Source: Mesostigma viride (taxonomy: Eukaryota > Streptophyta > Mesostigmatophyceae > Mesostigmatales > Mesostigmataceae). Taken from it: 64,000 bases of DNA. The notes under the pieces were generated by a model. The model saw only the letters and a list, made by a program, of their open reading frames with translations. It was not told where the DNA came from and did not search any database. Below are positions 10,728 to 63,947 of this stretch, one piece after another; position 1 is the first letter of the stretch; every line of letters starts with the position of its first letter. The stretch lies in assembly GCA_009746045.1 (NCBI GenBank), contig RPFO01000296.1, positions 3,118,798-3,182,797 on the forward strand. Reading direction: 5' to 3'. The position numbers and the translations under genes were made by a program.

Positions 10728-10729
10728 GC

Positions 10730-28649: not shown

Positions 28650-28786
28650 TGTCGCGTCTGCGTGCCACAACCTCCGGCGCCACCATGCGGCTGGCCACTC
28701 AGCTTTGGTAAAACCCAAATGAGCTGAGCTGACGTGCCTGCCTTAACTGCATGCCCTGTGGGGTGGGCGAGGACCTGTCCCATGAT
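28650..28786 (-). repeat. MetGyp repeat B2 (outer 3' end)
   Basis: About 137 bp, nearly identical to 30041-30177 (one base missing near 28688 and a C/T change near 28672). On the minus strand it ends GGCACGCAGACGCGACA at the insertion boundary. Confidence 0.85.
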
Positions 28787-30038
28787 TGACGAAAAGAGGG
28801 CTCTCAGCCGAGGACAAGGAACTGTCCCTCGTGCCTGATGACCACCTTATTGATCCCCTTGTGTACCGTCGCGTGCCGCGTTTGAATATCCTTGCTGGGG
28901 CGTTAGCTAGACGCTCCAACTACTCTAATTGCGACAATATGATGGTGCAAGAGGATGCCTTTGCCTCCCCTGCTATAGAACAATGCTTTCACAACACACA
29001 CTTTGCACAGTCTGATGATGAAGCCGCACATGCGGAATTTATTGAGAAAGTTAATACAATTACAACACGTTGATAGTCTCAATATCGATGCACTCCATGC
29101 TCACGAGCCCGCAGTTAGGCAGCGCTCCATGACATGCTACCGGCCTTGCTCCCAAGGAAAGGGAGAAACACGAAGGCCACTAACGAGAGACTCGAAGAGA
29201 CTACACGCTGCGTGAGAGTCCTCTTCGACTATGAACCAAACCATTCGTCATGCCACACGCATGACACACGCCACACTTGTCAGTCCAGCCAGGAATGCCA
29301 AAACTATCTTGCTGCCTGAACCATGCAAATAGAAACCGCATTCCAGTTGCCGTCCTGGCTTTCTACCACACATGCCAACAAAAGCAGGAAGGCATCCCGA
29401 CAAATCTAAATTGCTACCCTGTTGCCGATCTCATCTCCTAGAGGCTCCGGCATTTCTGTCCCTGGGAATGTCCGGCATTGAGTCACGTCCACCAAGGTCG
29501 AAGCATAATATCCTTCAGACAATCTGCACGCTCACACCTTGCGTGTGAGTGGCCCAGCAAACATTGCGTCTAATCGTTCCTTTCTAGAAGAAATCCCTTT
29601 GTAGGGCTGCCAGCGATTTCGCATTCATTCCAGCGATCTGGCTCCGCACCGCAAATTGTCCTTTTCCATTTTCTGTCCAGTCCTCATAACGTTGACCCGC
29701 TATTCTACACCACAAAGACACCTGGCCTGTCAATAGCCTCGGCGCTGTTGAAGTCCAGCAGTCCAGCTCCAGCTCAGCTCCAGCTGTCACTAACACGCGT
29801 ATGATCCTCTCGACGCTGCGCACTTGTGCTGCCGTCCGCTCAAGTCAGTGCTGCGCGCCCAGCTGTGCCTGGCCCGGCGCGCGCGCACGTACACTTTCGT
29901 CCGCTCTTATGCTGCAAGTGCTAGTGTCCCCCCCGGTCACTAGCCTTTGTCGAAAATGCGTAGAAAACAAATTCCTTGCGCACGTCACCGGTCTTGTGCA
30001 TAGTGGGCGCCCGGATGACATAGCTCGCGTCCGTGACA
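28787..30038 (-). repeat. MetGyp repeat A2
   Basis: About 1.25 kb. On the minus strand it starts TGTCACGGACGCGAGC (30038) and ends TTTTCGTCA (28787). It matches the pieces 47123-47511, 61319-61679 and 62997-63500, which together are A1. The open frame at 28786-29073 also occurs in A1 but has no known domain. Confidence 0.88.
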
Positions 30039-30040
30039 GC

Positions 30041-30177
30041 TGTCGCGTCTGCGTGCCACAATCTCCGGCGCCACCATGGCGGCTGGCCACTCAGCTTTGG
30101 TAAAACCCAAATGAGCTGAGCTGACGTGCCTGCCTTAACTGCATGCCCTGTGGGGTGGGCGAGGACCTGTCCCATGA
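30041..30177 (-). repeat. MetGyp repeat B1
   Basis: Inner copy of B. It lies between the polypurine tract (30178-30189) and GC plus A2. The B1-A2 junction reads ACGCGACAGCTGTCACGG on the minus strand, with a palindromic core GACAGCTGTC. Confidence 0.85.
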
Positions 30178-30189
30178 TTCCCCCCTCGC
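30178..30189 (-). promoter_or_regulatory. MetGyp polypurine tract
   Basis: Minus strand GCGAGGGGGGAA, abutting B1. It marks where plus-strand DNA synthesis would begin. Confidence 0.7.
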
Positions 30190-30204
30190 TGGCGACCGGC
30201 CCCA

Positions 30205-31098
30205 TCACGAAGACAGCGATCGTACCAAGACAAGGGCAGCGGTGACCGCAGTCAAGCTGCGGGAGGTAAACTGCGCAGCGGTGCACACTGGACAAAACCA
30301 ATCCCCCTCCGGAATGCTGGTGACCACTGGCTGCAAGCACTGCATGTGCCAACCACAGTTACACTGATCACACAATAACATGGACTCCGCCTGATCGACC
30401 CGGTGACAAACCTGACACTGGGCGTCCTTGACTCGGCGAGACGTGTGCGGTTGGAGGTCGTGGACCAAATTGGGCAGCGAGCAGGGACTGAGATTGCTGA
30501 GGTTGTCAGTCGTACGGCTCCCGTCGGCGCCCTCCAAAATTGCCACTCCCGATGGTTTGATAGCCACAATGCGCAAAATGGTGGGCCCCGCCTCCACATC
30601 CAAAGTGTGCTTCAGCTGAGTGCGCAGGAAAACATACTGCCCTGGCCTAAACCGCAGCTGGCGAGCCATGTATGCGCCCCCCCGGCGCTGAGCGTAGCGC
30701 AGGGAGTCCCTGTGCTGAGCAATGAACAAGTTGTTCATCGCGATGGGCATGACCTTCTTAAAAGTCTCTGCCCTGGCCAGCACCTCAACCAAAAATTGCT
30801 GAGCGTTGTCGAAGGCCATGGGTTCGGGGTGCGCAACCTGTGCCTCCGTAGGCAAAAGAGGATTACGCCCGAACAGAAGGAAATACGGGGAGAAGGTAGC
30901 GAGAGACTCCTGGGGAGACATGCGATAACCCATGGCAATCCATGCCAACTCGCGATCCCACCTGGCCGACTCCGGCACCTGCAGGCTCCACTTGCGCAGC
31001 GCCTGCTTGACGGTCTGCACCAATCTCTCAGCCAAACCATTGGCCTGAGGATGCTCCCGAGAAGTGCGACGGTGATCAATAAGACATCCATCCAGCAA
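30205..31098 (-). CDS. pol: MetGyp integrase C-terminal half with PHD finger
   Basis: Continues the integrase after a frameshift near 31100-31140. The second catalytic Asp (V-T-D-Q-G-G) lies just upstream at about 31132-31134 in this frame. The catalytic Glu is in G-L-A-E-R-L-V (about 31029). After the core and a basic SH3-like region comes a complete PHD finger at about 30417-30283, with Cys/His spacing C4-H-C3 (C228, C231, C243, C246, H251, C254, C269, C272 of this frame) and a W-F-C-P-V-C end. PHD fingers read histone H3 tails, so this is a plausible targeting module in place of a chromodomain. Stop at 30205, then the polypurine tract. Confidence 0.9.
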   Translation of the reverse strand: MLDGCLIDHRRTSREHPQANGLAERLVQTVKQALRKWSLQVPESARWDRELAWIAMGYRMSPQESLATFSPYFLLFGRNPLLPTEAQVAHPEPMAFDNAQQFLVEVLARAETFKKVMPIAMNNLFIAQHRDSLRYAQRRGGAYMARQLRFRPGQYVFLRTQLKHTLDVEAGPTILRIVAIKPSGVAILEGADGSRTTDNLSNLSPCSLPNLVHDLQPHTSRRVKDAQCQVCHRVDQAESMLLCDQCNCGWHMQCLQPVVTSIPEGDWFCPVCTAAQFTSRSLTAVTAALVLVRSLSS

Positions 31099-31139
31099 CT
31101 CCTGGAACTCACCCCTGAACTCACCACCCTGGTCCGTGA

Positions 31140-31715
31140 CTACCTCCGCGGGAGCCCCAAACCTGGTATGATGTCCGCAAAATGCTTCGCTGTGGTAGCG
31201 GCATGCTTGTCAGCAATGGGGATCAACTCAACCCATTTGCTAAAGCTCTCCACGCATACCATGACATAGAGGTTGCCGTCAGGGCTCTCCTGAAACGGCC
31301 CGCACAGATCGACGTGCCAGCGATAAAACAAGCCCTTGATGGGAAGCGACATCAGCTCCTTGGCACCATGATCTGCGCTAAAGTTAGCCTTGGTTCGAGC
31401 ACACGGGACACAGCTGGCCACTACCTGGGCCACCGTGTGTCGCATGTTATTCCACCAATAGCTGGTCCGTACGAGGCTGAGCGTGCGATTGCCACCCAAG
31501 TGACCATACCGCTCGTGGTACGCCTGCACTATAGCAACGCGCTTGTCAGGCGGTGGGACGACCACCCTACGCTTGCCCAACAGCTTGTACAAAACCCCAT
31601 CTTCCCAACCATAGGTTGCAGCCCTGTGCTGCACCCTGTTCAACTCCGTCGCCTTCTGAGCAGGAGTCCAATCGACTGGAGTAGGAGTCAAGACAGCACC
31701 CTGCACTTGCTCCAA
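31140..31715 (-). CDS. pol: MetGyp integrase N-terminal half
   Basis: HHCC zinc-binding domain (H67, H72, C102 and C105 of this frame) followed by the core with the first catalytic Asp in H-V-D-L-C-G-P-F (about 31310-31308). The core matches the integrase type common in algal gypsy elements. The frame ends at 31140 because of an indel. The second Asp and the Glu follow in the next frame, so the DDE triad is complete at the sequence level. Confidence 0.9.
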   Translation of the reverse strand: MEQVQGAVLTPTPVDWTPAQKATELNRVQHRAATYGWEDGVLYKLLGKRRVVVPPPDKRVAIVQAYHERYGHLGGNRTLSLVRTSYWWNNMRHTVAQVVASCVPCARTKANFSADHGAKELMSLPIKGLFYRWHVDLCGPFQESPDGNLYVMVCVESFSKWVELIPIADKHAATTAKHFADIIPGLGLPRR

Positions 31716-31791
31716 ACTCGACCATCTAGCCAGATATCAGCGGTGTAGCAATCAGCAAGAGAGCTACGCGCTAAGAGAGCCTGCACAGCGA

Positions 31792-32955
31792 TCAGCTGCT
31801 GCAGAGAAGGATCAATGTCAAAGGACAGAGACCTACCCTCTTCCATAGCGCACACAGCTTTGGATGGCGTGAATGGAGACGGCCGCACCGGGTCGTCGCT
31901 GTGCCGAAGTCCGCCACAGAGTACTCGACACTGCGCCACCATGCCTCCTCCTCATCGTCGGCCGCATACCCAGCAGCGTTCACAAAGACCACAGAACCAG
32001 ACGAGCCCTCGGCACCCATGGCCCGGGCTCCAGTGTGGTCAACAGTGGTAGGCATGGCGTATCGGGATAGCACATCGGCGTTGACATGGTCCTTGCCGGC
32101 CCGATGCACAATGGTCATGTGGTACTCCTGGATAATCATGGCCCATCGGGCGAGCTTACCCGTCAGGTTGGTGTTGGTCATTAGCCACTGAAGCGGCTGG
32201 TGGTCTGTCACCAGAGTAAACACGCGCCCAAATAAATACGGGCGAAAGTGCTTGATGGCCCACACCACAGCCAGTGCCTCCCCCTCATAGGAAGAATACC
32301 GGCTCTCCGCTGGGTTGTTGCTGCGACTAGCATAAGCAATAACGTGCTCGCGCCCATCACCATCCTTTTGCGCCAAGACCGCACCCAGTCCTACCTTGGA
32401 CCAGTCGGTATATAACACAAATGGCAAAGCATAGTCAGGGGCGCGCAGAATCGGTGCCGACGTGAGCTCCTGCTTGATTGTCTCGATGGCGCGTTGCTGT
32501 GCGGGACCCCACGCCCACACGCACCCCTTCTTGAGTAACTCGGTCAAGGGCTTCACCTTGCTGCTGAAGTTCTCAATGTAACCTCGGTAATAGCCAGCCA
32601 AACCCAAATACGCCCGCACCCCTGAGACATCCGTGGGTACGGCGGCCTGCGCAATGGATTCGACCTTGGCGGCATCAGGCGTCCGGCCACCCGGCACAAT
32701 CTGATGACCAAGGAATGAGAGGGTCCGCTGGGCGAACTTGCACTTCTCAGGGTGCAGCCGCATATTATGCTCCTCGAGAGCCAAGCGAACCTGCTCCAAG
32801 TGCGCCAGGTGCTCCTCAAATGTCGCGCTAAAGACGATTACATCATCAATGTAACAAGCGGCGAAAGGAAGACCTGCAAGCACTTTGTCCATAGCTCGTT
32901 GGAAAACAGCACTAGCGTTGCGGTGCCCAAAGGGCATGCGCACCCACTCATACAA
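31792..32955 (-). CDS. pol: MetGyp reverse transcriptase C-terminal part and RNase H
   Basis: Joins the preceding RT frame near 32950. It carries M-P-F-G-H-R-N-A-S-A-V-F, the catalytic Y-I-D-D (about 32853-32842), F-L-G-H-Q-I and Y-L-G-L-A-G-Y-Y-R. RNase H follows, with Asp in Y-T-D-W-S (about 32415), E-G-E-A-L-A-V-V (about 32280) and T-D-H-Q-P-L (about 32200). The last 60 or so residues are out of frame with the integrase, so another shift lies near 31850-31940. Confidence 0.9.
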   Translation of the reverse strand: MYEWVRMPFGHRNASAVFQRAMDKVLAGLPFAACYIDDVIVFSATFEEHLAHLEQVRLALEEHNMRLHPEKCKFAQRTLSFLGHQIVPGGRTPDAAKVESIAQAAVPTDVSGVRAYLGLAGYYRGYIENFSSKVKPLTELLKKGCVWAWGPAQQRAIETIKQELTSAPILRAPDYALPFVLYTDWSKVGLGAVLAQKDGDGREHVIAYASRSNNPAESRYSSYEGEALAVVWAIKHFRPYLFGRVFTLVTDHQPLQWLMTNTNLTGKLARWAMIIQEYHMTIVHRAGKDHVNADVLSRYAMPTTVDHTGARAMGAEGSSGSVVFVNAAGYAADDEEEAWWRSVEYSVADFGTATTRCGRLHSRHPKLCALWKRVGLCPLTLILLCSS

Positions 32956-34229
32956 ATTGCCGCCCCCCAGAATGCAAGCTTCCGCTGATCCTCCGGCGCA
33001 ACTGCGATCTGATGAAAGCCGCTACGCAGGTCCAGCGAGGACACAAACTTCACATGAGGAGATATCTTATCCAGGACATCATCCACACGTGGCATGGGGT
33101 AACGGTCCACGGGTGTGTGTGCATTCAGCAACCGCAGATCGGTGGCCATGCGCATACCCGTCCATGCCCCGGTGATAGCGTCCTTCTTGGGCGCAACGAC
33201 AACGGCAGCAGCATAGCTGGAGGAAGATTGCCTGATGATACCGGCATCCTCTAACTCCTTGCATTGCTCGGCTACAAAATCCAACTCGGCCTGACTCAGG
33301 CGATGCTGGCGTCGGAACAAAGGAGTGTCAGTGTCCAATGGAACACGCATGGTCCCACCATTGAAACACCCCAGTTCATCACTTGTGAAAGCGAAGGCCC
33401 CCCTTGCAGTGCCTAGCCACTTTAGCATGGCTGAGCGCTGCGCATCAGAAAGGTGTTCGCCAATAGCCCAGGGGTGCGTATCCGCGGGATCACCCACAGC
33501 TACCGCATGTGCCTCAAGATGCGGCGCCCTAGCCGCATCGTCGTGGAACAAGGAAAAGGCTGCCACACCTGGTGTGACACCCACCGCCGGAGCCTCGCGT
33601 GCCGCACGGTGTATTACCCGATGCAGCGTGGGCTCGCCGGCCAGCACGGTGCTGGTCAGCAGGGCGGTCATGAGAATGATAGTCCACACCTGTCGCAGAC
33701 GCCACCCCCATGCTGATGAAGTCCCCGTCGCTGCAGGGCGCTTCAGTTTGGCTGCGCGCGCCTCAACCTGCTGAGGCGGATTGGCTGGGGACGCCCCCCC
33801 AGACTGGCGCACGGCAACCGATGCAAGCAGCACATACCCGACCTGCAACACCGACATAGCCTGGCCTATCAAAGACCAGCGCTCACTCTCGAGCACGCCC
33901 GGCAGCGCCGAGGCCCCGACATGAAAACCCATGCTGGCCTCACGAAATTCTGCGGGTGGCTGCACCAACAGACCGGTGGTAGTGTCCCAAACGAGACCCT
34001 TACCCCGATCACGGTATGCTGTCGACCCTTGGTAACTGACCAGGGTCGGCAGTGCACACATGGGGCTCCCGACCCGGTTGACGCGTGCATACGGTGGGCG
34101 ATCCTCGCTATCCACCTTCTGCGTGACTAGGTGGGAAGGCAATGCTACCTCCGCAGACACACTCGGATGCTGCCTTGCTACGGCCCCAAGACCGCCTGCA
34201 CACCGGTCGCACACGCCACGTTGGTCCAA
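32838..34229 (-). CDS. pol: MetGyp: methyltransferase C-terminal part, hydrophobic segment, RT N-terminal part
   Basis: The frame is open without an ATG. Residues about 60-135 complete the cytosine methyltransferase. Motif IX-like P-A-E-F-R-E-A-S-M-G-F is at about 33960-33925, and motif X-like R-W-S-L-I-G-Q-A-M-S-V at about 33880-33845. A strongly hydrophobic stretch follows at residues 181-198 (about 33689-33636, V-W-T-I-I-L-M-T-A-L-L...), which could be a membrane helix. After an acidic linker come RT fingers (R-M-A-T-D-L-R-L-L-N) and palm (S-L-D-L-R-S-G-F-H-Q-I, about 33030). The frame derails near 32950. The order methyltransferase before RT inside one polyprotein is unusual. Confidence 0.85.
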   Translation of the reverse strand: MDQRGVCDRCAGGLGAVARQHPSVSAEVALPSHLVTQKVDSEDRPPYARVNRVGSPMCALPTLVSYQGSTAYRDRGKGLVWDTTTGLLVQPPAEFREASMGFHVGASALPGVLESERWSLIGQAMSVLQVGYVLLASVAVRQSGGASPANPPQQVEARAAKLKRPAATGTSSAWGWRLRQVWTIILMTALLTSTVLAGEPTLHRVIHRAAREAPAVGVTPGVAAFSLFHDDAARAPHLEAHAVAVGDPADTHPWAIGEHLSDAQRSAMLKWLGTARGAFAFTSDELGCFNGGTMRVPLDTDTPLFRRQHRLSQAELDFVAEQCKELEDAGIIRQSSSSYAAAVVVAPKKDAITGAWTGMRMATDLRLLNAHTPVDRYPMPRVDDVLDKISPHVKFVSSLDLRSGFHQIAVAPEDQRKLAFWGAAICMSGCACPLGTATLVLFSNELWTKCLQVFLSPLVTLMM

Positions 34230-36817
34230 TAGGCACGCAAACGATGCGTGAGCCCACCCAGCCCTGCGTTGTCACACACGATGGGCTCCCCCAGGAGTGC
34301 CACGATTGTAGCCCAGTCCTCCCGCACCGCCTGATGTGGGCTGTCACCCGCCACAACGTTCTCAAACAGATACGCAGGCGGATGGGGCTGACGCGACTGC
34401 AACAGTCCCACCACACGCAACAGTTCCCAGAACAGCGCGCTACGCGGATCGGCTAGCCCCCGCCCTTGCCCTGCCTGGCTCAGGCCCTGGCACTCCCAAC
34501 CCGCAATTACCAAGTCGATGGCATGATGCCTGCGCAACAACTGCTGCACCTGCACCTCACCGATGGCTCGGATATCTTGAGGACATTCCCCAAACGGGTC
34601 ACGCCATGCTGATGGCGGAAACTGCGCGGGATACTCTCGCGACAACACGCCACAGTGACTGAAGTACACCTGACGCGCCTTGTGCGATGGCTCTACCGCG
34701 ATGAGTTTACGGCACACGCCGCCTGCGGCCAAAAAGCCTGCAATGCCCCCTCCGATCCCCGCAAACAGTTCCAACACTACCGCACCCTTGGCAAAATCAG
34801 GGGCCTGCGGTAAGATTGCAGCAGAAAAATTACCTTGGGCCTCCGAGACACCCGGTTGCACCAAAGTGAGGCCATGGCTGGCCATCTGAGGAATGGTGAC
34901 GACGGCTTCAGTCACCCGCTTGCGCATAGCCAGCTGCCGCGTGGACGTCACAGCATCCAGCGACCACTGCGTGCGCATCTTGGCAATGCTCGCCGTTGGC
35001 TGAGGCAGCACCGTCCGATGCTTGTCCCACGCCGATGAGCCCGCCGCCCGTACCTCCACCATGCTGACCTCCACCACGCCCGCAGCCGCTGAAGGGTTGA
35101 GGCGTGCAGCCCCGGCTGAAGAACTGAAGCATGAGACCGGCACACTGGCCCGCTTCAGGCCAGCCCCATCCCAATCAGGGATGTAAGATGCCTCCTCCGC
35201 CCTATAGTCCACCTGAACCATGGCGCGAGCAAGGACATCCACCCCGAGTAGTGCGGAATATCCACACTTGTTGACCACCAGCGCATACGCGGACACGGTG
35301 GTCATGCTAGAGGCGCGCAACGGATTGAAAATCACGTTGACTTTAACCGCCGTCATAGCGTACGGCTTACTAGCCGGACCCTGCCAACCTGACACAGACA
35401 CGGGGCTTTCCACTAAGCCACCGTTCTCGTAGGTCAGGTTCAGCATGGTGGCCAAGTCTGTGCTGATGACTAGCGGCTGAGCACCGCTATCAAGCTTGAC
35501 TGCGCCAACCAACGGACATGTCACCATGTCGCTCCATACATCTCCACAGGCTCCAACTGCTTGGAACGCTATGGACGGCTCACCATTGGGGTATGGAACC
35601 ACCGTGGGAACCTGGGGAACTGCACTAGTGCGCTGCTGGCTACTTGTGCTGACCACTCCCGCTTGCACCACGGGCACTGCGGCTTCTACCGGCTGACGCC
35701 CGTAGGTGACGGACTCAGAATTGCGCAAGGTGCGCACATCATGCCCATCTGCGAACAACTGGATCTCGGACACAACCGACCCCAGCCACTCAACCCCCTT
35801 CTGCCCGAAGGTGTCGACCACCTGCCGTGCTGAAAACATGGGTACGTCCACAATGAACGGCATTGGGTACACAGGCGCCAATCGCCTACGCTGCTCCAGC
35901 CCAGCAGGGTTCGCATGCTCAAAAGCAGATTGCACCCCAGCCAGCGGCATGGAAAAGGACGCGGGCAACTGCCCGGCAGGCAACATGGGTGCCTGCTGAA
36001 AAGAAAGCGGGCTGCGTGCCTGCTTGCCTTTGGTAGCCTCCGCAGCGTTGATCTCGACGTCACCCGGCATGGGCGCCCAGAATGGGTCCTCCCGGTACAC
36101 CGTCGCGAATTGGTTGGGGGGCGCCGTCGCCTCCTCACCATGCTTGATGGCAGCCACCTGGGCTTCCATCGAGTCGGTCTTGCCCGCCATCTCGGCGAAG
36201 TGGACCGTCTTGATGCCCGCGGCTGGACACTTGTTCATCAGGTGCCACTTCGTGTCTGCCCCATGCGGCTTCGTGCAGCGGCTTGGACACTCGCGACTAA
36301 GGTGCCCATCCTTGTCGCAAAGGTAACATTTACCGCGTGACGGGGTGGGTGCGCCCAGCGCGCCTTGCACGCCCTGCGCCTCCTGAGTCCCATCCGATGT
36401 CGGCGGACGACCGCCTCCGCCTCGACCACCACCGCGACCCCGACCACCGTAGCCACTGCCGCCGCCACCACGACTGACACCGCCGCTGCCACCCTGACCG
36501 CCACCGCCGCTGCCCCCGTGACCGGCGTTGCCACCACCCTGAGTGCCGACATATTCACCGCGCCCCGCACCAGGCAGCCGCTGGCCACCCTTGACCGCGA
36601 TGGCCTTCTCCATCTCAGCCATCTTCTTGCGCATCTCAGCCAGCTCAGACGAGATACCCTTCTCGCCTTCCGCACGCTTCCTGAGCAGCCGCTTGAATGC
36701 TGCACAGAGAGTCACCAAAGTCCACTCCCCACCGGGCGGCTCCGGAAGATCGATGGCCAGCAGGGGCACTGCACTCCGCCATAACCGGCAAGCCTTGGTC
36801 TGCGTATAATCAGGCAC
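34178..36817 (-). CDS. MetGyp: Gag zinc knuckle, aspartic protease and C5-cytosine methyltransferase N-terminal part
   Basis: A frame of 879 codons, open without an ATG. It has an Arg/Gly-rich region (residues 80-140), a CCHC knuckle C164/C167/H172/C177, and a long linker. The retropepsin has D443-S-G-A and the A-L-L-G strand at 522-525. The methyltransferase starts at about residue 678. Motif I is L-E-L-F-A-G-I-G-G (682-690, AdoMet binding). Motif IV is W-E-C-Q-G with catalytic Cys776 (about 34492-34490), where the usual Pro before Cys is Glu. Motif VI is F-E-N-V (818-821) and motif VIII H-R-L-R-A-Y-W-T-N (858-866). The pattern around motifs VI and VIII recalls DNMT3. The frame is lost near 34190, and motifs IX-X continue in the next frame. 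The product would methylate cytosine in DNA if repaired. Confidence 0.9.
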   Translation of the reverse strand: MPDYTQTKACRLWRSAVPLLAIDLPEPPGGEWTLVTLCAAFKRLLRKRAEGEKGISSELAEMRKKMAEMEKAIAVKGGQRLPGAGRGEYVGTQGGGNAGHGGSGGGGQGGSGGVSRGGGGSGYGGRGRGGGRGGGGRPPTSDGTQEAQGVQGALGAPTPSRGKCYLCDKDGHLSRECPSRCTKPHGADTKWHLMNKCPAAGIKTVHFAEMAGKTDSMEAQVAAIKHGEEATAPPNQFATVYREDPFWAPMPGDVEINAAEATKGKQARSPLSFQQAPMLPAGQLPASFSMPLAGVQSAFEHANPAGLEQRRRLAPVYPMPFIVDVPMFSARQVVDTFGQKGVEWLGSVVSEIQLFADGHDVRTLRNSESVTYGRQPVEAAVPVVQAGVVSTSSQQRTSAVPQVPTVVPYPNGEPSIAFQAVGACGDVWSDMVTCPLVGAVKLDSGAQPLVISTDLATMLNLTYENGGLVESPVSVSGWQGPASKPYAMTAVKVNVIFNPLRASSMTTVSAYALVVNKCGYSALLGVDVLARAMVQVDYRAEEASYIPDWDGAGLKRASVPVSCFSSSAGAARLNPSAAAGVVEVSMVEVRAAGSSAWDKHRTVLPQPTASIAKMRTQWSLDAVTSTRQLAMRKRVTEAVVTIPQMASHGLTLVQPGVSEAQGNFSAAILPQAPDFAKGAVVLELFAGIGGGIAGFLAAGGVCRKLIAVEPSHKARQVYFSHCGVLSREYPAQFPPSAWRDPFGECPQDIRAIGEVQVQQLLRRHHAIDLVIAGWECQGLSQAGQGRGLADPRSALFWELLRVVGLLQSRQPHPPAYLFENVVAGDSPHQAVREDWATIVALLGEPIVCDNAGLGGLTHRLRAYWTNVACATGVQAVLGP

Positions 36818-43270: not shown

Positions 43271-43414
43271 AGGAACCTGTACCTCTCCAGGTGACCTGGG
43301 GCCACACTGAACCTGGAGATCACCCTCTTGTTGCCCAGATATAAAATCTGCATTGGAGCACCTGGCCTCCCCCTTGGGTGAATTAAGGTGTGTAGGGGTT
43401 GCCTCAGACAGTCA
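43271..43414 (-). promoter_or_regulatory. Cop1 gag-pol readthrough junction
   Basis: Gag ends with UGA at 43414-43412, followed directly by CUG. The 47 codons from there to the pol ATG contain no further stop and are in the same frame as both gag and pol. UGA followed by CU is a known leaky context, so pol may be made by stop-codon readthrough. The alternative is internal initiation at 43270. Confidence 0.6.
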
Positions 43415-54530: not shown

Positions 54531-54840
54531 CTTCAATAAGTCTACTGTTCTACATCCGGTGGTGGATGGACACAAGCAATAAAGGCCCCGCCCACAACTC
54601 AGATTTCTTTAGAAAATCTACTGATCTACATTCGATGGCGCCTTCACAGAAGCAGGAAACTCCGCCCACCGGTCAAATGTGACGCCCAACAAAGCCCCAA
54701 CTTATTTCTTCAAGAAGTATACTGTTTTACATCCGGTAGTGCTTGGACAGAAGCAATATGTAAAGCCCGCCCACAAATCGGATTTCTTTACGAAAAACCT
54801 GTTTTACATTCGATGGGGTCTTGACAGATTCAAGCAGCAA
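54531..54840. repeat. degenerate tandem repeat, about 85-100 bp unit
   Basis: Units contain TACTGTT(C/T)TACATCCGGT or CTGATCTACATTCGATGG, followed by ACAGAAGCA and CCGCCCAC. Copies lie near 54540, 54615, 54720 and 54800. Confidence 0.55.
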
Positions 54841-54894
54841 TACTCGTTTCTACCTGCGTGCGACTGCAGCGGCCGAGTGCTGCAACTTGCCTTC

Positions 54895-56290
54895 ACGTCC
54901 CAGTCTTCACGTGTCAGTCCTGGTCTTCACGTCTTCACGTCTTCACGTCTTCACGTCTTCACGTCTTCACGTCTTCACGTCTTCACGACTTCACCTGAAC
55001 TTGCGGCGTATCGTATCTTTGATACCTTGCATGCACGTCTTCACGTCTTCACGTCTTCACCGCGTCTTCACCTGTCTTCACCACGTCTTCACGTCTTCGC
55101 GTCTTCACGTCTTCACGGCTTCACCTGAACACCTGAACTTCACCTGAACTTGCCGTATCGTGTCTTCACGTCTTCACGTCTTCACGTCTTCACGTCTTCA
55201 CCGCGTCTTCACCTGTCTTCACCACGTCTTCACGGCTTCACGGCTTCACGTCTTCACGGCTTCACCTGAACACCTGAACTTCACCTGAACTTGCCGTATC
55301 GTGTCTTCACGTCTTCACGTCTTCACGTCTTCACGTCTTCACGTCTTCACCGCGTCTTCACCTGTCTTCACCACGTCTTCACGTCTTCGCGTCTTCACGT
55401 CTTCACGGCTTCACCTGAACACCTGAACTTCACCTGAACTTGCCGTATCGTGTCTTCACGTCTTCACGTCTTCACGTCTTCACGTCTTCACCGCGTCTTC
55501 ACCTGTCTTCACCACGTCTTCACGGCTTCACGGCTTCACGTCTTCACGGCTTCACCTGAACACCTGAACTTCACCTGAACTTGCCGTATCGTGTCTTCAC
55601 GTCTTCACGTCTTCACGTCTTCACGTCTTCACGTCTTCACCGCGTCTTCACCTGTCTTCACCACGTCTTCACGTCTTCGCGTCTTCACGGCTTCACGGCT
55701 TCACCTGAACACCTGAACTTCACCTGAACTTGCCGTATCGTGTCTTCACGTCTTCACGTCTTCACGTCTTCACGTCTTCACGTCTTCACCGCGTCTTCAC
55801 CTGTCTTCACCACGTCTTCACGGCTTCACGGCTTCACGTCTTCACGGCTTCACCTGAACACCTGAACTTCACCTGAACTTGCCGTATCGTGTCTTCACGT
55901 CTTCACGTCTTCACGTCTTCACGTCTTCACGTCTTCACCGCGTCTTCACCTGTCTTCACCACGTCTTCACGGCCTCACGGCTTCACGTCTTCACGGCTTC
56001 ACCTGAACACCTGAACTTCACCTGAACTTGCCGTATCGTGTCTTCACGTCTTCACGTCTTCACGTCTTCACGTCTTCACGTCTTCACCGCGTCTTCACCT
56101 GTCTTCACCACGTCTTCACGGCTTCACGGCTTCACGTCTTCACGGCTTCACCTGAACACCTGAACTTCACCTGAACTTGCCGTATCGTGTCTTCACGTCT
56201 TCACGTCTTCACGTCTTCACGTCTTCACCGCGTCTTCACCTGTCTTCACCACGTCTTCACGGCTTCACCTGAACACCTGAACTTTGCGTA
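54895..56290 (+). repeat. TCTTCACG satellite with 141-149 bp higher-order unit
   Basis: The base motif is TCTTCACG (8 bp). Higher-order units each contain CACCTGAACACCTGAACTTC and CTTGCCGTATCGTG. The CCGTATCG block recurs at about 55153, 55294, 55443, 55584, 55733, 55882, 56030 and 56180, spacings of 141 or about 149, so units differ by one 8-mer. Encoded open frames are repeat translations. Confidence 0.9.
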
Positions 56291-56449
56291 TCGTATCTTT
56301 CATACATTGCATCATTTGCATGCCTTGGAGCTGCACGTCTTCAAGCAGTGTCACCCAGTTCCCGCTTGATTCAAATGCACTTCGCGCTTGAATTCGTGAC
56401 TTCGCCCCGCTCAAGGTGGAAAGAATGATGGGCACTAGCCACGGGAACT

Positions 56450-56797
56450 ATGCCCGATGCTGATAGCCGAAGCGATGACATGGACGAATTGATTGATTTG
56501 TGTTATGCCGGGGACGATTGTAGAAAATGGGTGCTAGGAAAGAAATCTGGTGCCATGAAAGTAGATTTTTTGGCCGGTGCAAACCACCAATGCGCCGGCC
56601 GATGTGGCAAGGTCCTGCACGGCAGCCAGAGCGCACCCAGCCAGAGCGTACCCAGCCGCTGCCGCCGCCGACCCCCGTACTGGTGGGCGTGGAACAGACG
56701 ATGAGAGAGATGCAACGAGCTATGGAGAACCAAAGCAAGAAGGTTGAAGAGCTTGGTTTGCAGCTGCGTCAAGAGGTGCAGAAACAAGTGGTCCAGC

Positions 56798-56836
<39 letters not shown>

Positions 56837-56873
56837 TGCAGCAGCAACTGCAGCAGCAACTGCAGCAACAACT

Positions 56874-56930
<57 letters not shown>

Positions 56931-58360
56931 CTTCAGTTCCCGCAGGCAGCGTCGGCAATGTCGCAGTTTCCACAGGCATTGTCGGCACTGCAGCAGTTTT
57001 CGCAGGGACCGTCGGCAGCAGAGCAGTTCCCGCAGGGATCATCGGTGGTGCAGCAGTTCTTTGTGAGTCATTCGTGTAGTGTTGAGTGGGTGGGGTGGGG
57101 GGTGTGTGTGGGGGGGGGGTGTAGGGGGGTTTGACTGTGTGACTGCGTGGCTGCTTGGCTGGAAAGGAGGGTGCGTGGCTGTGTGGCTGCGTGGCTGCGC
57201 TGCTGCGTGGCTGCGTGGCTGCGTGGCTGCGTGGCTGCGCTGCTGCGTGGCTGCGTGGCTGCGTGGCTGTGTGGCTGCGTGGCTGCGCTGCTGCGTGGCT
57301 GCGTGGCTGCGCTGCTGCGTGGCTGCGTGGCTGGAAAGGAGGGTGCGTGGCTGTGTGGCTGCGTGGCTGCGCTGCTGCGTGGCTGCGTGGCTGCTTGGCT
57401 GGAAAGGAGGGTGCGTGGCTGTGTGGCTGCGTGGCTGCGCTGCTGCGTGGCTGCGTGGCTGCGTGGCTGCGTGGCTGCGTGGCTGCGTGGCTGCGTGGCT
57501 GCGTGGCTGCGTGGCTGCGTGGCTGGAAAGGAGGGTGCGTGGCTGTGTGGCTGCGTGGCTGCGCTGCTGCGTGGCTGCGTGGCTGCGTGGCTGCGCTGCT
57601 GCGTGGCTGCGTGGCTGCGTGGCTGTGTGGCTGCGTGGCTGCGCTGCTGCGTGGCTGCGTGGCTGCGTGGCTGCGTGGCTGCTTGGCTGGAAAGGAGGGT
57701 GCGTGGCTGTGTGGCTGCGTGGCTGCGCTGCTGCGTGGCTGCGTGGCTGCGTGGCTGGAAAGGAGGGTGCGTGGCTGTGTGGCTGCGTGGCTGCGCTGCT
57801 GCGTGGCTGCGTGGCTGCGTGGCTGCGTGGCTGCTTGGCTGGAAAGGAGGGTGCGTGGCTGTGTGGCTGCGTGTAGCTGCGCTGCTGCGTGGCTGCGTGG
57901 CTGCGTGGCTGCGTGGCTGCGTGGCTGCGTGGCTGCGTGGCTGCGTGGCTGCGTGGCTGCGTGGCTGGAAAGGAGGGTGCGTGGCTGTGTGGCTGCGTGG
58001 CTGCGCTGCTGCGTGGCTGCGTGGCTGCGTGGCTGCGTGGCTGGCTGGGGGGGGGGGGGGGGCCGGGTGCGTGGATGCGTGGATGTGTGGCTGGGTGGGT
58101 GCGTCACTGCGTGGCTGGCTGGCTCTGTGGCTGCGTGGGCGGCTGGATGGCCGGGTCAGCGTGGCTTCGTGTTCAATGGGATGCTAATATGTTGTTGCCT
58201 TTGGATGCCACAGTTCATGGATTCTTTTGTTCACATGCAGGTGCTGCCGTCTTCCCCATCGACGTCGTCAAGACCGATGTCGCCAAGAAGGATGATGCAA
58301 TCACTCTCGGCCATGTTTAACTCATGTGGGCCTTCATGGCCATACGGGAAATATTATTGA
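56450..58360 (+). CDS. TIR9 gene 2, plus strand: coiled-coil, glutamine-rich protein with a satellite-filled intron
   Basis: Starts at the ATG at 56450 with an acidic N-terminus and C-A-G-R-C-G. After a one-base shift near 56600-56650 it reads a Pro-rich segment, a coiled coil (about 56695-56795, V-E-Q-T-M-R-E-M-Q-R-A-M-E-N-Q) and a polyglutamine tract. A second shift at the end of the CAG tract leads to a Gln/Phe/Pro-rich region ending at 57062, where GTGAGT forms a 5' splice site. The predicted intron 57063-58240 ends TTCACATGCAG. The last exon (58241-58360) is in phase and encodes a Ser/Pro/Met-rich tail with the stop at 58358. Family unknown; possibly an accessory or DNA-binding protein of TIR9. 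Confidence 0.5.
56801..56934 (+). repeat. CAG repeat (polyglutamine-coding)
   Basis: About 44 codons of CAG with CAA and CTG interruptions at regular spacing (CTGCAGCAG(CAA) units at 56832-56880), then 18 pure CAG units. Glutamine is the frame continuous with the coiled coil upstream. Confidence 0.85.
57139..58120 (+). repeat. GGCTGCGT minisatellite within the predicted intron
   Basis: The 8-bp unit GGCTGCGT repeats with variants GGCTGTGT, GCTGCTGCGT and GGCTGGAAAGGAGGGTGCGT, giving irregular higher-order blocks, ending in a G run at about 58047-58062. All three plus frames and the minus strand are open for hundreds of codons because the unit lacks stops. I do not call these genes. Confidence 0.9.
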
Positions 58361-58850
58361 ATCAGTTCTTTGACACTGAGTTGGCACTACGCAACACCTT
58401 TGATGCACATGAGTGCAGGGCGCATGTGTTGAAACCATGCAACCATGGCGATCCCTCAAAAAGTTTGGTTATGTAATAAGTGACACAATTATTCCGGACG
58501 TATGATGGCCCAACGTCCTGTAAGGTTGAGTTGTCTTGGAGGAGGAGCGTGATGACCGCGGAAGCCGCGTGGGTGTCTGTAGTGCTATATCTTGAAGATG
58601 TACGGTCTTGGAAGAGTTATGGTCTTGGAATCATATAATAATGAACTTGGAATAAAGTTGCGGGCAGCCTTCAATTGGCATATGTTGTCTCATTGATGTT
58701 GTCTCATTGCGTTAATGGGTCAATTGTCTTAGTTTATATAATGTATATCTTGGGAAACTCATTGCTTCAATAAAATGCATGCTAGGCGCAATCAACCCCC
58801 ACAAACACATCTGAAAACTGCACAGTGCATCAAATGTATCCTAGACAAAA
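58361..58850. other. TIR9 3' region without a gene
   Basis: AT-rich sequence after gene 2. AATAAAG near 58651 and AATAAAATG near 58769 could serve as polyadenylation signals. Subterminal ATGTATCCTA repeats begin at about 58835. Confidence 0.5.
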
Positions 58851-59148
58851 AAATGTATCCTAATCCGGTAAAACCACCCTTTCGAGATTGTAGCACAATA
58901 GGGCCACTGCCCCTACTAACAATTCCAGGTCGCCAGCCATTAGCCAAATCCGGTTACATCTGCCAAACCCGCCCGGTTCAGCCGACCATCCAGGCGGCTC
59001 CCGTGAGCGGCCTTATTCCCCGCCTCACTTCGAGAAACTCTTTTCAAAGAAATCCGATCCTGGCTCCTGACGCTTAAGTTGGCAATGATTCACCACCTAC
59101 AAATTATTAATTTAAGTCCCCATAATAATAACCCCATGCCTTTTAACA

Positions 59149-59160
59149 TGGCATCGGAGG
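59149..59160 (+). promoter_or_regulatory. LARD1 primer-binding site
   Basis: TGGCATCGGAGG directly follows the 5' LTR. It differs at one base from the Gyp1 site (TGGTATCGGAGG), so the same initiator-Met-type primer is likely. Confidence 0.65.
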
Positions 59161-60803
59161 TCCGGGGCAAGATCTTTCAACGGAATTAACCAACCTCTAA
59201 GCGGCAGCTCACATTTTATTGAGCGCCTTGATCATAGTTTATATTTTCATATACGGAGCAGCTTGGTCGAATTCTTGTACTTGATACGACCATGATTATG
59301 GCGCAGATGCTACCGTGAAATTCAAGGCTTTCAATCGACTTACTTCAACGTGTGGTAACACCAAATATTCGGGGTGACACCTACCGTCGCTAAAATCCGT
59401 CAAGAATTTCCCAAGCTCCGGTGCGCAGGCCAGATCTACGCTTTTATACTTATATATGCCCGAAACTGATCAAACGCCAACATTTCGGTGATGGGGACGT
59501 CGGCACTGAAGCCTGGCACTCAAAAGGTGCCGGCTCTGGTTCCAGGCAGCGCCAGTGATTTTTTACCTGGCAGCACATTTTTGCCCGAGTGCAGTGCGTT
59601 CAATCGGCGCGGGGTCACTGACGGGCTCCCACTGAGCCGCGCGAGCTGTGAGCATCGACGAGAAATCGGCGGAGCTGTTTACCTCAAGAATTTTTCATGA
59701 GAACCGGTCTTTCTTTTGTACCGGCACCATTTCGCGTGGCATCAACATTCTTTTGGGCGCATTCTTTTAAACCGGAATTCTTTTTAAACGGTCATCACTT
59801 CAAGAGCCCAGAGCCTGCCATGCTCCAAGGTCCAAGAAAAAGGGAAACATTCCCTGGGTCCTGCTCTCAAGGCCAGCCTGCTGACACAGCTGCACACCAC
59901 ACTAAGGAGGGTGCTCACTAACCCCCACGTTGTTTTCAGCACTAGTTGCAGTTTTATAATTCAGTCACATTTAACTAGTTGCAGGCACCACTAGCAGCAT
60001 GCAGCAACAGCTAGTTGCATTATCACGTGCCAGCACTAGACACCCACTAGCAACCAGTTGCCCCATAATGTAGGCAGCAGTAACAGCACAGTCCCATCAG
60101 CACCATCACACTGGCATCAACAAGCACAGCAGGCAACACCAGCAGGAACAGAGTACACTGCATAGTCCATGCAGGCAGCTACCCACACTTGCCTAGCCAG
60201 CAAGGAGAAGTAGTAGCACCCAGCAGCACATGCATGACTCTCCACCACAGGCGTAGAGTAGATAGTAGCTGCAGTCAGCTGCACGCACTTGTCTAGCTAG
60301 CAAGTAGCAGTCCAGCAACCAGCTCTACATCCTCACGTCACAGTTCACCTTGTAGTAGTTGCAGTAAGTTGCACCAAACCCTGTTGGCAAACAAGTCGGA
60401 GTAGCACTACCAGCACCACACAAGAAACTGTACCCACACACAGCATAATATAGATCGTGTGTGCACACACAGCAGCTGACGTCACCGGTTTACCAGCAGC
60501 TACGAGTACCCAACGTTTCCAGCTGCAACCCTGGCATCAACCAGTACCGGCTACAGTCTGCATCCAGACTCAACACTGAGCAACCAGTCTTTACAGTTCC
60601 AGAGCCTGTTTCCAGTTTGGCTCCACCCTCGTGTGGCGCACTCCATGTGACAATATGGGGCTACACAACCTTGCCTTCATTTTTCTTGCTGTTTTATATC
60701 AAGACCAGGGTGTCGTGTAAGGAGGGAATCCCCTTAGGTACCCGACTACCCTCGCCCAGGATCTAGCATTTGTATTTATAGACAGCATCATGTGCAAGGA
60801 GGG
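59161..60803 (+). other. LARD1 interior, non-coding
   Basis: No gag or pol motif in any frame. At about 59940-60330 the motif (A)CTAGTTGCA and related GCAGTAG/CAGCA words recur many times. Short open frames (59488-59700, 60461-60766) have no domain. Confidence 0.6.
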
Positions 60804-61313
60804 TGTCAAGAATCCTGTCTTGAATATGCCCATTATGCTGACCGTGCAGAAATCTATAATACGGGCAGTTGTATTCGAGCCCTAATTAACAAATAGATAT
60901 GCTCGGATAGTAGTACCTAAGTGGGATTTGTCCTACGTGAACGGACACTATGACTATGTGCCAAGTTGTACAATGGCACTAGGACCATTGGTCACTATCT
61001 TCACCAGATTATAGTATTGTGTCATGTGCATGTCATACCATGCCGTACCGAGTCATGCATGCGCATGCACCATGTTCCAACATACCAGCTGTCGTTATCG
61101 ACCCATTGTCGGCCCATACCCATACCAGGGCCGCCGCCACCACTCACCTACCATAATTACCAATGTTCATGCTACCTTGAGGTAGCCATGGAAAGCCACA
61201 CCATATGGACGTAATAAATAATTTTCCTGGCTCCTGACGCTTAAGTTGGCAATGATTCACCACCTACAAATTATTAATTTAAGTCCCCATAATAATCACA
61301 CATGCCTTTAACA
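60804..61313 (+). repeat. LARD1 3' LTR
   Basis: Uninterrupted 510-bp LTR, TGTCAAG to TAACA. The open frame at 60966-61214 recurs in the 5' LTR (47674-47922) and is not called a gene. Confidence 0.82.
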
Positions 61314-61679
61314 CGAAGGCCACTAACGAGAAACTCGAAGAGACTACACGCTGCGTGAGAGTCCTCTTCGACTATGAACCAAACCATTCGTCATGCCACA
61401 CGCATGACACACGCCATACTTGTCAGTCCAGCCAGGAATGCCAAAACTATCTTGCTGCCTGAACCATGCAAATAGAAACCGCATTCCAGTTGCCGTCCTG
61501 GCTTTCTACCACACATGCCAACAAAAGCAGGAAGGCATCCCGACAAATCTAAATTGCTACCCTGTTGCCGATCTCATCTCCTAGAGGCTCCGGCATTTCT
61601 GTCCCTGGGAATGTCCGGCATTGAGTCACGTCCACCAAGGTCGAAGCATAATATCCTTCAGACAATCTGCACGCTCACA

Positions 61680-62988
61680 CCAGTGTACAGCCATACGCAA
61701 TACGCAATCATACGGGGCCCATGGGTATGGTGTATAATACGCCATACGGGGTATAATACGCAAATCATACGGGGACTCTTGAAAATGCTGTTTTTTGCAT
61801 GGTTCAGGGGGTTCTTCAACATTCTGACCAATCAGGCATGTTTTTTTTGTGTTCTTGCAACACCACTTGCCTTTATTTAACACATCATCACATAATATTG
61901 CCGTTGCCGTCGCTGCATGCCTACAAATACAAGCATTGTACATCTGTTGTTATTAATAATGTCTGTAAATAGCACACGGTCAGTCGGCCAACTTGCCAAA
62001 AGTTATAAGACATTGTGCCAGAAACAGACATCTTGCCTACTCGTGGTAGGCCACCATGCAATATTGATCTACATGAAGCAAGAATCCATACGGGCTGCCA
62101 ACAATGTGGCTAGCGTGCAGGATACCATGCATGCCAGCAACCCGACCCAGCTTCCCTAAACCATTAACACATATGGTACGGTGGCTGGCTAGCAGCAGCC
62201 TGCATGGCTAAATAAGGCATTTATGTGCATCGCGAGTCACACCAAATACCCCGCAGCCTGCGACGTAATGCCTCCGGCGGCCTCTTGCACTCGCTCACTC
62301 TTGCCTCCTTCGCGTACGTAGCGCCCATGATATGGCGGGTGCTAGCCTTGCTCGGGTGGTAGAACCCGAGAATTTTGCATCCAAAAGTGTGCACGTCACT
62401 TAGCTTGTAGTTACCTGTCGGCTGCCCTTTCCTGTTGAGAGTCTGTTCTTTCACGATGTGTGTCCAGACAGTCTCGAATACGGCCTGCATCTCGTCGGCC
62501 CAGTCATCATCGTGTTCCATAGACCCACACCATCACCGTCGCTAGCCATGGTGCCTGGATGTCAATTGTGCTACGATTAAATGTTAGGTGCCAGATGCGC
62601 GCCCTTGTTGGCAGACAACATAACTTCGTCACCTAATTTCCTCGTCCTTCGTCTCCTAGACCCTAGTCCGACACGCAGCAATCTGCAGCAATGCACGTAC
62701 AGTCGTACATGCACGGCCAGCTTGGCACCTGCATGTCGTTTATTTGTCGCGGAGTTCCAGGTCGCCTAGATACAGTCTAGTTCCGGCTCCACGTGCCGTC
62801 CAAAATGATGCCAGAAGCTACTTCGAACGCGGTTCATACGCAAAAAATACGCAAAAAATACGCAATACGCAAAAAATACGCAAAAAATACGCAGTGCGTA
62901 TTTTTTTTCCCATTTCCATACGGAAATCTTGCGTATGGCGTATAATACGCGCCATACGGCGTATTATACGCCGTATCGCTGTTCACTG
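61680..62988. mobile_element. hAT1: non-autonomous hAT-type element
   Basis: Ends CAGTGTACAGCCATACG and its inverted counterpart CAGTGAACAGCGATACG (two mismatches in 17), flanked by the 8-bp duplication GCTCACAC (61672-61679 and 62989-62996). A2 shows the empty site. The 8-bp duplication and CAGTG-type ends indicate the hAT superfamily. Subterminal CATACG(G/C) and CGTATAATACG words repeat many times at both ends, as transposase-binding arrays do. No transposase is seen. Confidence 0.85.
62221..62520 (-). CDS. small ORF inside hAT1, unknown, possible captured fragment
   Basis: 99 codons from the ATG at 62520 to TAA at 62221. Acidic start (M-E-H-D-D-D-W-A-D-E) with a Trp/Phe pattern, then K-L-S-D-V-H-T-F-G-C-K-I-L-G-F-Y and a basic C-terminus. 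Codon use looks protein-like and its composition is less AT-rich than the flanks. No family recognised. It could be a transduplicated host exon or a relic of transposase. Confidence 0.35.
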   Translation of the reverse strand: MEHDDDWADEMQAVFETVWTHIVKEQTLNRKGQPTGNYKLSDVHTFGCKILGFYHPSKASTRHIMGATYAKEARVSECKRPPEALRRRLRGIWCDSRCT

Positions 62989-63499
62989 GCTCACACCTTG
63001 CGTGTGAGTGGCCCAGCAAACATTGCGTCCAATCGTTCCTTTCTAGAAGAAATCCCTTTGTAGGGCTGCCAGCGATTTCGCATTCATTCCAGCGATCTGG
63101 CTCCGCACCGCAAATTGTCCTTTTCCATTTTCTGTCCAGTCCTCATAACGTTGACCCGCTATTCTACACCACAAAGACACCTGGCCTGTCAATAGCCTCG
63201 GCGCTGTTGAAGTCCAGCAGTCCAGCTCCAGCTCCAGCTCCAGCTGTCCTAACTCGCGTATGATCCTCTCGACGCTGCGCACTTGTGCTGCCGTCCGCTC
63301 AAGTCAGTGCTGCGCGCCCAGCTGTGCCTGGCCCGCCGCGCGCGCACGTACACTTTCTTCCGCTCTTATGCTGCTAGCGCTATAGTGTACCCCCCCGGTC
63401 ACTAGCCTTTGTCGAAAATGCGTAGAAAACAAATTCCTTGCGCACGTCACCGGTCTTGTGCATAGTGGGCGCCCGGATGACATAGCTCGCGTCCGTGAC

Positions 63500-63947
63500 A
63501 GGACCAAGAAGCAGGAGGATAAAATGGAACTGCACTAGGGCGACCAGAAGGGCCAACAGGGGCAGAGGTACGACCCATGTTATAAGCAGGGATGGAAGGC
63601 ACAGGGTGAGGAGGAGGCCTAGAAGCATTGTCAGAGAGTGAGGACCTAATTGAGGGTGGAGCCAAGGTTGCAGGAGGGGCAGGGGCCTGGTTCAGGGTAA
63701 AAGAGGGGTCATCACTAAATCTGACATGTTGTTCAAAGGTAGGTGGGGTACGTGAGGGACGACGGCGACCACCAGTAGTAGGAGAAGGAGGTGAGGTACG
63801 CAGGTTACCTTGAGGAGTGAGATGATGCACCGTTTCCAAGGAGTCCCGTCGGTTACCACGAGTATCGTTGTTATTATTAGTAGTATTATTATTATTAGTA
63901 GTATTATTGGTAGGTATAGGCGACATATCTCCACCCACTGGATCCAT
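63500..63947 (-). CDS. gag: Gyp2 gag, N-terminal part
   Basis: Begins at the ATG at 63947, close to the window edge. Asn/Thr-rich start (AAT/ACT repeats), then Pro/Arg/Ser-rich sequence. It is cut at 63500-63504 by the MetGyp insertion and resumes in the same frame at 28649. Bases 63948-64000 are leader. Confidence 0.85.

Follow-up and report, generated by a model that had tools for sequence, protein, structure and literature searches.

The window analysed here, a stretch of 64,000 nucleotides from the streptophyte Mesostigma viride (contig RPFO01000296.1, positions 3,118,798 to 3,182,797), contains two retroelements, E1 (the outer element) and E0 (the second), in which the terminal repeats are split into two modules, A and B. 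Self-comparison, together with the letters at the joints, places E1 on the minus strand from 63500 to 28650 in the order A1-internal-B1-GC-A2-B2, with TG...CA ends. Its parts and flanks, in the direction of the element, are as follows.

63501..63504, minus strand: target-site duplication GTCC, 5' side (GGAC on the plus strand)
47124..63500, minus strand: A1 repeat, starting TGTCACGG at 63500 (self-comparison and letters)
47110..47123, minus strand: putative self-primer binding site after A1, complementary to A2 at about 29203-29190 with one mismatch
34181..36841, minus strand: frame with a zinc knuckle (gag side; PF00098, E 1e-4) and a C5 cytosine DNA methylase (PF00145, E 1.7e-11)
31795..34271, minus strand: reverse transcriptase and RNase H, in overlapping frames 32841-34271 and 31795-33021
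30208..31736, minus strand: DDE integrase, split over two frames
30180..30189, minus strand: polypurine tract GCGAGGGGGG, from the letters
30041..30179, minus strand: B1 repeat, AATCATGGG...GACGCGACA, directly after the polypurine tract
30039..30040, minus strand: GC spacer within the palindrome GACA-GC-TGTC, a putative uncut integrase site
28788..30038, minus strand: A2 repeat (self-comparison and letters)
28787..28788, minus strand: A2/B2 joint TTTCGTC/AATCATGG, where two predicted ends of the complementary DNA (cDNA) would meet
28650..28787, minus strand: B2 repeat, with the outer 3' end ACGCGACA
28646..28649, minus strand: target-site duplication GTCC, 3' side (GGAC on the plus strand)
27374..28645, minus strand: 3' part of the target gag frame (Retrotrans_gag, zinc knuckle), the 5' part of which lies at 63501-63998

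The letters agree with the initial annotation that A1 at the outer 5' end (63500) is followed by leader and not by B, the leader being entered at 47123, and that the 3' end reads polypurine tract, B1, GC, A2, B2. Two younger insertions (about 47512-61309 and 61682-62988) interrupt A1, whose remaining pieces (63501-62989, 61681-61310 and 47511-47119) match A2 at 97.9-99.5% identity. The internal region is likewise interrupted, by a copia element at 38216-46049 (assigned by RVT_2) with 0.62-kb long terminal repeats (LTRs). The gag frame into which E1 was said to have inserted is indeed continuous across the outer boundaries: when the flanks are joined with one copy of GTCC it is open over 590 aa, and since joining restores the frame, the outer ends of E1 are true insertion ends. 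Of the two duplications offered earlier, AGGAC or GGAC, the four-base version holds and the five-base one does not, the repeat being exactly 4 bp. The outer-end duplication and the restored gag frame together rule out that E1 is an ordinary LTR element with nested pieces.

By its proteins E1 is a Ty3/gypsy element. Its RNase H match (1.5e-39) is accompanied by a match of the reverse transcriptase to the solved Ty3 reverse transcriptase structure 4ol8 (E 8.6e-45); the methylase frame found no match among solved structures. A complete DDE integrase had been claimed, and it is recognisable as such, but in the window copy it is divided between two frames, one (31143-31736) with the H2C2 motif (HHCC) and the first D and the other (30208-31209) with the second D, the E and a PHD finger; the copy is therefore no longer intact. 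Scanning six E1 frames and three frames of a third family, F3 (below), gave no Phage_integrase (tyrosine recombinase) domain, with rve and H2C2 found instead, and the domain order in E1 and F3, reverse transcriptase, RNase H, H2C2 and rve, is that of Ty3/gypsy elements.

The second element of the window, E0 (9260-12081), has the same kinds of repeat:

9260..10519, plus strand: A1, 1260 nt; against A2, 1252 identities, 5 mismatches and 3 gap bases
10632..10727, plus strand: B1, preceded by a polypurine tract GAGTGGGGGGGG
10728..10729, plus strand: GC spacer in CGCGACA-GC-TGTCGCG
10730..11986, plus strand: A2, 1257 nt
11987..12081, plus strand: B2, with the outer 3' end; the 4-bp duplication TTGA stands at 9256-9259 and 12082-12085

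The A sequence of E0 is unrelated to that of E1, and the single similarity between their A or B modules at E<0.01 is the last 18 nt of B. Despite its unrelated A, E0 repeats the order and the GC spacer of E1 and is flanked by a 4-bp duplication of its own, so the split layout is not a chance arrangement. The internal DNA of E0 is 112 nt with the polypurine tract included, and the element must be nonautonomous because this region is so short. E0 itself lies near the 3' end of a gypsy element (window 70-13006) with a chromodomain integrase and LTRs of about 0.7 kb.

Further copies came from a survey of the one genome in which the window lies (440 Mb, 2243 contigs), and all our readings rest on genomic copies. 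An integrase-core search of the contigs gave 2441 candidate matches, of which 150 were scored; copies were chosen by integrase similarity and their ends sought at the distance predicted for a full-length element, an approach that passes over truncated copies. The strongest integrase-core matches listed (L001 and L002; G000:C2011:144400 and 204955; E 1e-24 and 4.5e-23) stand far apart from all others in score and share one contig; they could belong to a different kind of transposon or be of foreign origin. The survey yielded F3, which lies elsewhere in the genome; C777, taken as its reference copy, is arranged A-int-B-GC-A-B (int, internal region; hereafter the long form), with B of about 135 nt and A of about 1126 nt. 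Its frames carry the methylase, reverse transcriptase, RNase H, integrase and PHD finger, with the integrase core D,D34,E within one frame (spacing counted by hand), and are open over 1642 aa in six copies.

The split layout thus occurs in three families, E1, E0 and F3, at many loci with different flanks. Nine further integrase regions comprised two of F3 (C1724 and C1391:1827), five with long LTR-type direct-repeat pairs (L131, L133, L135, L141 and L143) and two without. The other LTR elements of the genome that were scored have whole LTRs at both ends, and beside TG...CA there are 5-bp duplications in 3 of the 7 repeat pairs with ends (in L131, L135 and L141, the other four being unscored). 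Among the regions looked at, then, the split layout was seen only in one integrase lineage. Members of that lineage do not have identical whole LTRs at both ends, the 5' end being A and the 3' end B-GC-A-B, and ordinary A-B LTRs at both ends, which the initial annotation had named as the finding that would overturn it, were present in no copy of these families with ends seen.

Not every end could be located. The 5' regions of four F3 copies (C69, C998, C1106- and C1945; 2.6 kb each) gave no match to A, nor did 9.9 kb upstream of C1391:1827 and of C1724; in a class of F3 copies described below, A-int-B, seven stretches at the expected 5' position lacked an A1 start, and the search for that class also turned up an altered leader (C1837). 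A first set of 5' stretches of the E1 family showed A1 in none of five, and nine copies with wider leader and/or 5' stretches (16 in total) showed the A1 start in three and the A1/leader boundary in one; in 15 E1-family 3' stretches the A/B joint was present in six and the B-GC-A joint in one. At two of the expected F3 5' ends (L238 and L239; G000:C1956:908809-909109 and C2134:294429-294729) there is gypsy-like coding sequence, as if elements there were nested or in tandem. A search of viral contigs with the reverse transcriptase gave no match. We put down to chance a B-end pattern match on one contig with phage-like frames, and took as chance matches the stretches, at least 119, in which the palindrome pattern was met in prokaryote genomes.

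Ten insertions had both ends located (copies with just one located end were excluded from the count): five long-form and two A-int-B copies of F3, two of the E1 family, and E0. All ten have an exact 4-bp duplication and none has a 5-bp match, whereas mispaired combinations of the same ends gave a 4-bp match in 0 of 90. The duplications are TCTC (C777), GGCC (C1613), CTTG (C2100), TCCT (C1468) and AGTT (C2200) in long-form F3 copies, TACT (C1579-) and CGGA (C1835) in A-int-B copies, GTCC (window) and CGGG (C1391:1.10) in the E1 family, and TTGA in E0. A short duplication of fixed length, here 4 bp, is what Ty3/gypsy elements leave. Could the window nevertheless hold an ordinary LTR element in a single rearranged or misassembled copy? 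It does contain insertions nested within one another, but the layout recurs in three families and at many loci, each of the ten insertions has its own 4-bp duplication, and other LTR elements of the genome have whole LTRs and, in 3 of 7 pairs as scored above, 5-bp duplications. The other families and loci rule out a one-off event, and we give this explanation practically no weight.

Where would reverse transcription begin and end in such an element? Directly after A (GTCTT), the leader of C777 reads ATCCACACAGAGCTACA, a perfect 17-nt complement of A 880-896, and six other F3 leaders keep 15 of the 17 complementary nucleotides. The leader of an E1-family copy, L135, reads ACTCGAAGAGACTA, a perfect 14-nt complement of A 836-849 (A being taken from the window copy). 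Shuffled sequences did as well in 0 of 300 cases for either leader. The A1/leader boundary of a further E1-family copy (C998:5.06) is at the same place as in the window copy, and a tRNA-type primer site (TGG...) was not seen in a search made by eye only. At the other side of the element, the base after the G run of the polypurine tract is the start of B in all three families: AGAAAAG in F3, AATCATGG in E1 and AGGTGGC in E0. The polypurine tract where B begins and, in two families, the self-primer site where A ends mark two cDNA ends and, by ordinary Ty3 priming logic, the cDNA would be B-GC-A - int - B-GC-A, beginning with B and terminating with A. Integrated copies are instead bounded by the first bases of A and the last of B, and the ends made by reverse transcription should accordingly differ from those that integrate.

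If this is correct, the A2/B2 joint is where two cDNA ends were brought together, and the joint does vary. Among 13 F3 copies we found eight types: the exact join of the predicted cDNA ends in five (C1613, C1690:7.72, C69, C998 and C1106-), an extra A in two (C2100 and C1724), and one copy each with AA (C446), AAG (C1945), ATC (C2200), ATCCA (C777) and T7G11 (C1468), or with A ending 138 nt early (C1690:7.31). The primer site itself begins with the extra bases ATC and ATCCA, and the G run looks like the polypurine tract; in C1468 (L165; G000:C1468:9279861-9280261) the T7 G11 between the cDNA ends has a run of G exceeding the G8 of the polypurine tract in C777. No A2/B2 joint could be located in two long-form F3 copies (C1106+ and C800). 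By contrast, B1-GC-A2 reads CGCGACA-GC-TGTCGCG in all ten stretches, from 10 of those 13 F3 copies, and A1/leader reads GTCTTATCCACACAGAGCTA in all six of the ten F3 stretches that contained the boundary. Only two altered B-GC-A joints were seen, one in F3 (L216, G000:C800; CGACA-TGCA-GC-TGTC, with 4 extra bases) and one in the E1 family (L227, G000:C1579:5617381-5618281; CGACA-GCTGACAG-TCACGG).

In the E1 family the A2/B2 joint is available at 11 loci, 10 of them independent, as C351 and C2156 have an identical flank and were scored as one insertion. Seven of the ten joints are exact (window, C887:2.79, C351=C2156, C1391:1.10, C1579:9.40, C1391:0.72 and C224, which has an E0-like B), as judged against an A end taken from three leaders (CGTC in the window and L135, CGTT in C998:5.06), and the inexact ones are C1579:6.77 and C2111, by one base each, and C1579:5.62, by more. 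At the joint of E0, B lacks its first A. The small losses, additions and primer-derived bases are the traces that would be expected from joining of cDNA ends. One of these loci (L253; G000:C224:3618604-3619104) has an E1-like A end joined to an E0-like B (GGTGGCATATC...), and A and B modules appear, from this locus, to have been exchanged between families.

Models for the PAT and TOC1 elements have reverse transcription make an A-int-B-A-B linear molecule directly. Could A2-B2 likewise be copied from RNA here, so that a linear A-int-B-GC-A-B is produced and the DDE integrase merely processes its ends? The order is that of tyrosine-recombinase elements (PMC6681497), and exact joints are in the majority in the E1 family, which speaks for such copying. 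Set against this are the polypurine tract and self-primer site, which mark the end of A and the start of B as cDNA ends, and the joint itself, which takes eight forms among 13 F3 copies, several of them including primer-site or tract-like bases. Meanwhile B-GC-A does not change, nor does A1/leader in the stretches that contain it. We regard copying of the joint from RNA as very improbable.

What we consider quite probable instead is that in this Ty3/gypsy clade the cDNA ends are joined and the integrase cuts an internal palindrome, CA/GC/TG. The RNA would start near position 880 of A, fold back and prime itself, and reverse transcription would yield a linear cDNA with the LTR B-GC-A at both ends. 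The ends of this molecule (the end of A and the start of B) would then be joined, most simply by host end joining, to form a two-LTR circle with small scars. There are 2 nt between CA and TG in the palindrome GACA-GC-TGTC, and one staggered cut there, inside one LTR, would produce two ends, each with a recessed CA-3'OH and a 5' GC overhang, so that both are processed at once and share one GC. The opened molecule would be inserted as A-int-B-GC-A/B, the other GC being left uncut and visible in the insertion. The initial annotation had proposed much of this, namely that reverse transcription sets a B-GC-A repeat and that integration takes place at ends lying within it, as though the GC were the cutting site of a circle or concatemer, and the proposal is supported by the polypurine tract and self-primer site (in two families), the 4-bp duplications in ten of ten insertions, the variable A2/B2 joint versus the nearly constant B-GC-A, and the A-int-B copies. 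A stronger version, in which circular or otherwise end-joined cDNA is the obligatory substrate of integration, the integrase opens the intra-LTR palindrome and host end joining is needed for further replication, we favour with less assurance, though we still lean towards it. The genome copies are compatible with joining before integration (a circle) and with joining after it.

The A-int-B copies are the second form in which these elements are found. Coding-end B was located in 26 F3 copies; 15 go on with GC-A2 (C800 with its 4 extra bases) and 11 run on into different DNA after CGCGACA. A one-LTR circle opened at its GC would give A-int-B, which, having no repeated R region, would be expected to be a dead end. 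These copies support the opening of one-LTR circles without proving it. Alternatively, GC-A2-B2 could have been lost from them after insertion, when B1 recombined with B2 over their about 135 bp. We think this possible, though not the better half of the choice: A-int-B is frequent (11 of 26), given how short the repeat is, and the six open 1642-aa frames are spread over both classes (four long-form, two A-int-B). Deletion would touch the second form only, is compatible with end joining followed by an internal cut, and is uninformative on circles.

Several observations weigh against end joining and an internal cut, or at least against parts of that interpretation. The mechanism is deduced from genome copies. 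The self-primer match is not significant in either window element, shuffles doing as well in 6 of 300 cases for the E1 leader, with its one mismatch, and in 196 of 300 for E0. Variability in the E1 family is modest, with 7 of 10 joints exact and two of the other three off by one base. For the A-int-B copies, just 2 of the 11 have a located 5' end, although both have the same A start and a 4-bp duplication; recombination between B1 and B2 would give exactly those ends and duplications (C1579- TACT, C1835 CGGA); in one copy (C1579+) B is not preceded by a polypurine tract; and another (C1391) reads GCTCCGC after CGCGACA, that is, GC followed by unlike DNA, and may be a decayed GC-A instead. Finally, a symmetric circle with two identical GC sites leads one to expect both possible orders, yet the alternative, A-B-GC-A-int-B, was seen at none of nine F3 5' ends (seven long-form, two A-int-B) and none of three in the E1 family, so the choice of site would have to be biased. 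The single order favours a rule that picks the GC nearer one cDNA end.

This last point bears on whether a circle is required at all. Without one, the integrase might act on linear cDNA, cutting its left LTR at the internal GC, and insert both processed ends together, the free A end and free B start being joined by repair in the broken chromosome; if both LTRs were cut, A-int-B would result directly. Such a route predicts identical structures, duplications and variable joints, and a cut near one cDNA end (in F3, B is about 135 nt and A about 1126 nt) could explain why the other order was found in none of nine. It does, however, require internal cutting of linear DNA and a double-strand break for each insertion, whereas two-LTR circles are known by-products and cleavage at their junction has precedent. 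We consider the route without a circle unlikely and retain the joining of cDNA ends before an internal cut as the better account.

The insertions within A1 of E1 deserve a brief description. The first (window 47512-61309, minus strand) is apparently an LTR element with LTRs of about 0.5 kb and a 1.65-kb internal region, inserted with about 9 bp of overlap at its ends. It hosts an 11-kb insertion (window 47934-59057, minus strand) with repeats Y - int - Z..V - Y - Z..V, which sits in the LTR of its host at CCAGG/AAAATT without a target duplication; it looks like a PAT/TOC1-like split-repeat element without duplication, a natural contrast to E1, and the one frame scanned (51059-52333) gave no family match. 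Window 52700-58300 holds long minisatellite-like tandem arrays (e.g. 8- and 24-bp spacings) with long open frames on both strands. The second insertion in A1 (window 61682-62988) is 1.3 kb long and has ends rich in GCGTAT/ATACGC repeats.

What follows if the joining of cDNA ends and an internal cut are indeed how these elements insert? The genome keeps the cDNA-end joint beside correct 4-bp duplications, so a long-form insertion would be a record of both end joining and integrase action, and every productive copy would rely on the joining of its own cDNA ends. An old question, whether circles can be precursors of integration, thereby becomes testable in a natural system. Our observations also suggest how a DIRS/PAT-like repeat order could originate and be maintained without a tyrosine recombinase, and A-B-A-B repeats alone do not identify tyrosine-recombinase elements.

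The split direct repeats of TOC1 have the same A1-int-B1-A2-B2 order, and the PAT, Ngaro and TOC1 tyrosine-recombinase elements are not known to make a target duplication. PAT, Ngaro and VIPER elements are described with that order as well (PMC6681497). Unlike all of these, the elements described here have a DDE integrase, Ty3-type reverse transcriptase and RNase H, 4-bp duplications, a polypurine tract and a GC spacer; the duplications, and the absence of a tyrosine recombinase domain from the frames scanned, rule out that they are tyrosine-recombinase elements. For Tf1, the ends of the cDNA are assumed to be those that integrate. Tf1 and Tj1 resemble our elements in having a primer site beside the 5' repeat that is complementary to the inside of the repeat, and Tj1 differs in its two identical LTRs and 5-bp duplication (PMC4600332). 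A putative self-primer site of the Tf1 type is present in F3 (17 nt) and in an E1-family copy (14 nt), perfect in both.

The closest likeness in print is KnitGypsy-Dnmt3 of Klebsormidium nitens, for which a 2018 figure legend (Fig. 4; PMC5890265) gives gypsy domains with DIRS-type repeats, and the legend is the sole printed notice of this combination that we found. Compared by text only, the two are alike in a gypsy Pol with cytosine methyltransferase and in repeats structured as in DIRS; the available passages of that paper contain nothing on target duplications, a spacer, a primer site, joints, a mechanism or a PHD finger. In the literature covered (titles and the beginnings of abstracts, with subscription papers, e.g. 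that on REM1, outside the coverage), we met no use by an integrase of internal LTR sites together with split repeats.

For the proposed cut itself the nearest parallel is the foamy virus PFV, whose integrase cuts the two-LTR palindrome on both strands and leaves a 2-nt 5' overhang, AT (PMC1180852). There too 2 nt lie between CA and TG, and a single staggered cut gives both processed ends. The PFV palindrome is formed at the LTR-LTR joint (PMC1180852), whereas in the present elements B and A flank it within the LTR, away from the joint, and joining does not produce it; the likeness to a two-LTR circle consists of the CA-GC-TG geometry only. The HIV-1 integrase likewise cleaves its own two-LTR palindrome (PMC1905944). 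Retroviral circles were proposed as integration precursors in 1984, and the idea receded once, in 1987, linear DNA had proved active (PMC11054761); as we read them, the reports of integrases opening two-LTR circles run counter to a linear-only view. Judged by their sequences, the elements of Mesostigma are Ty3/gypsy in their proteins, would be circle-integrating in their behaviour, and fall outside the definition of an ordinary LTR element.

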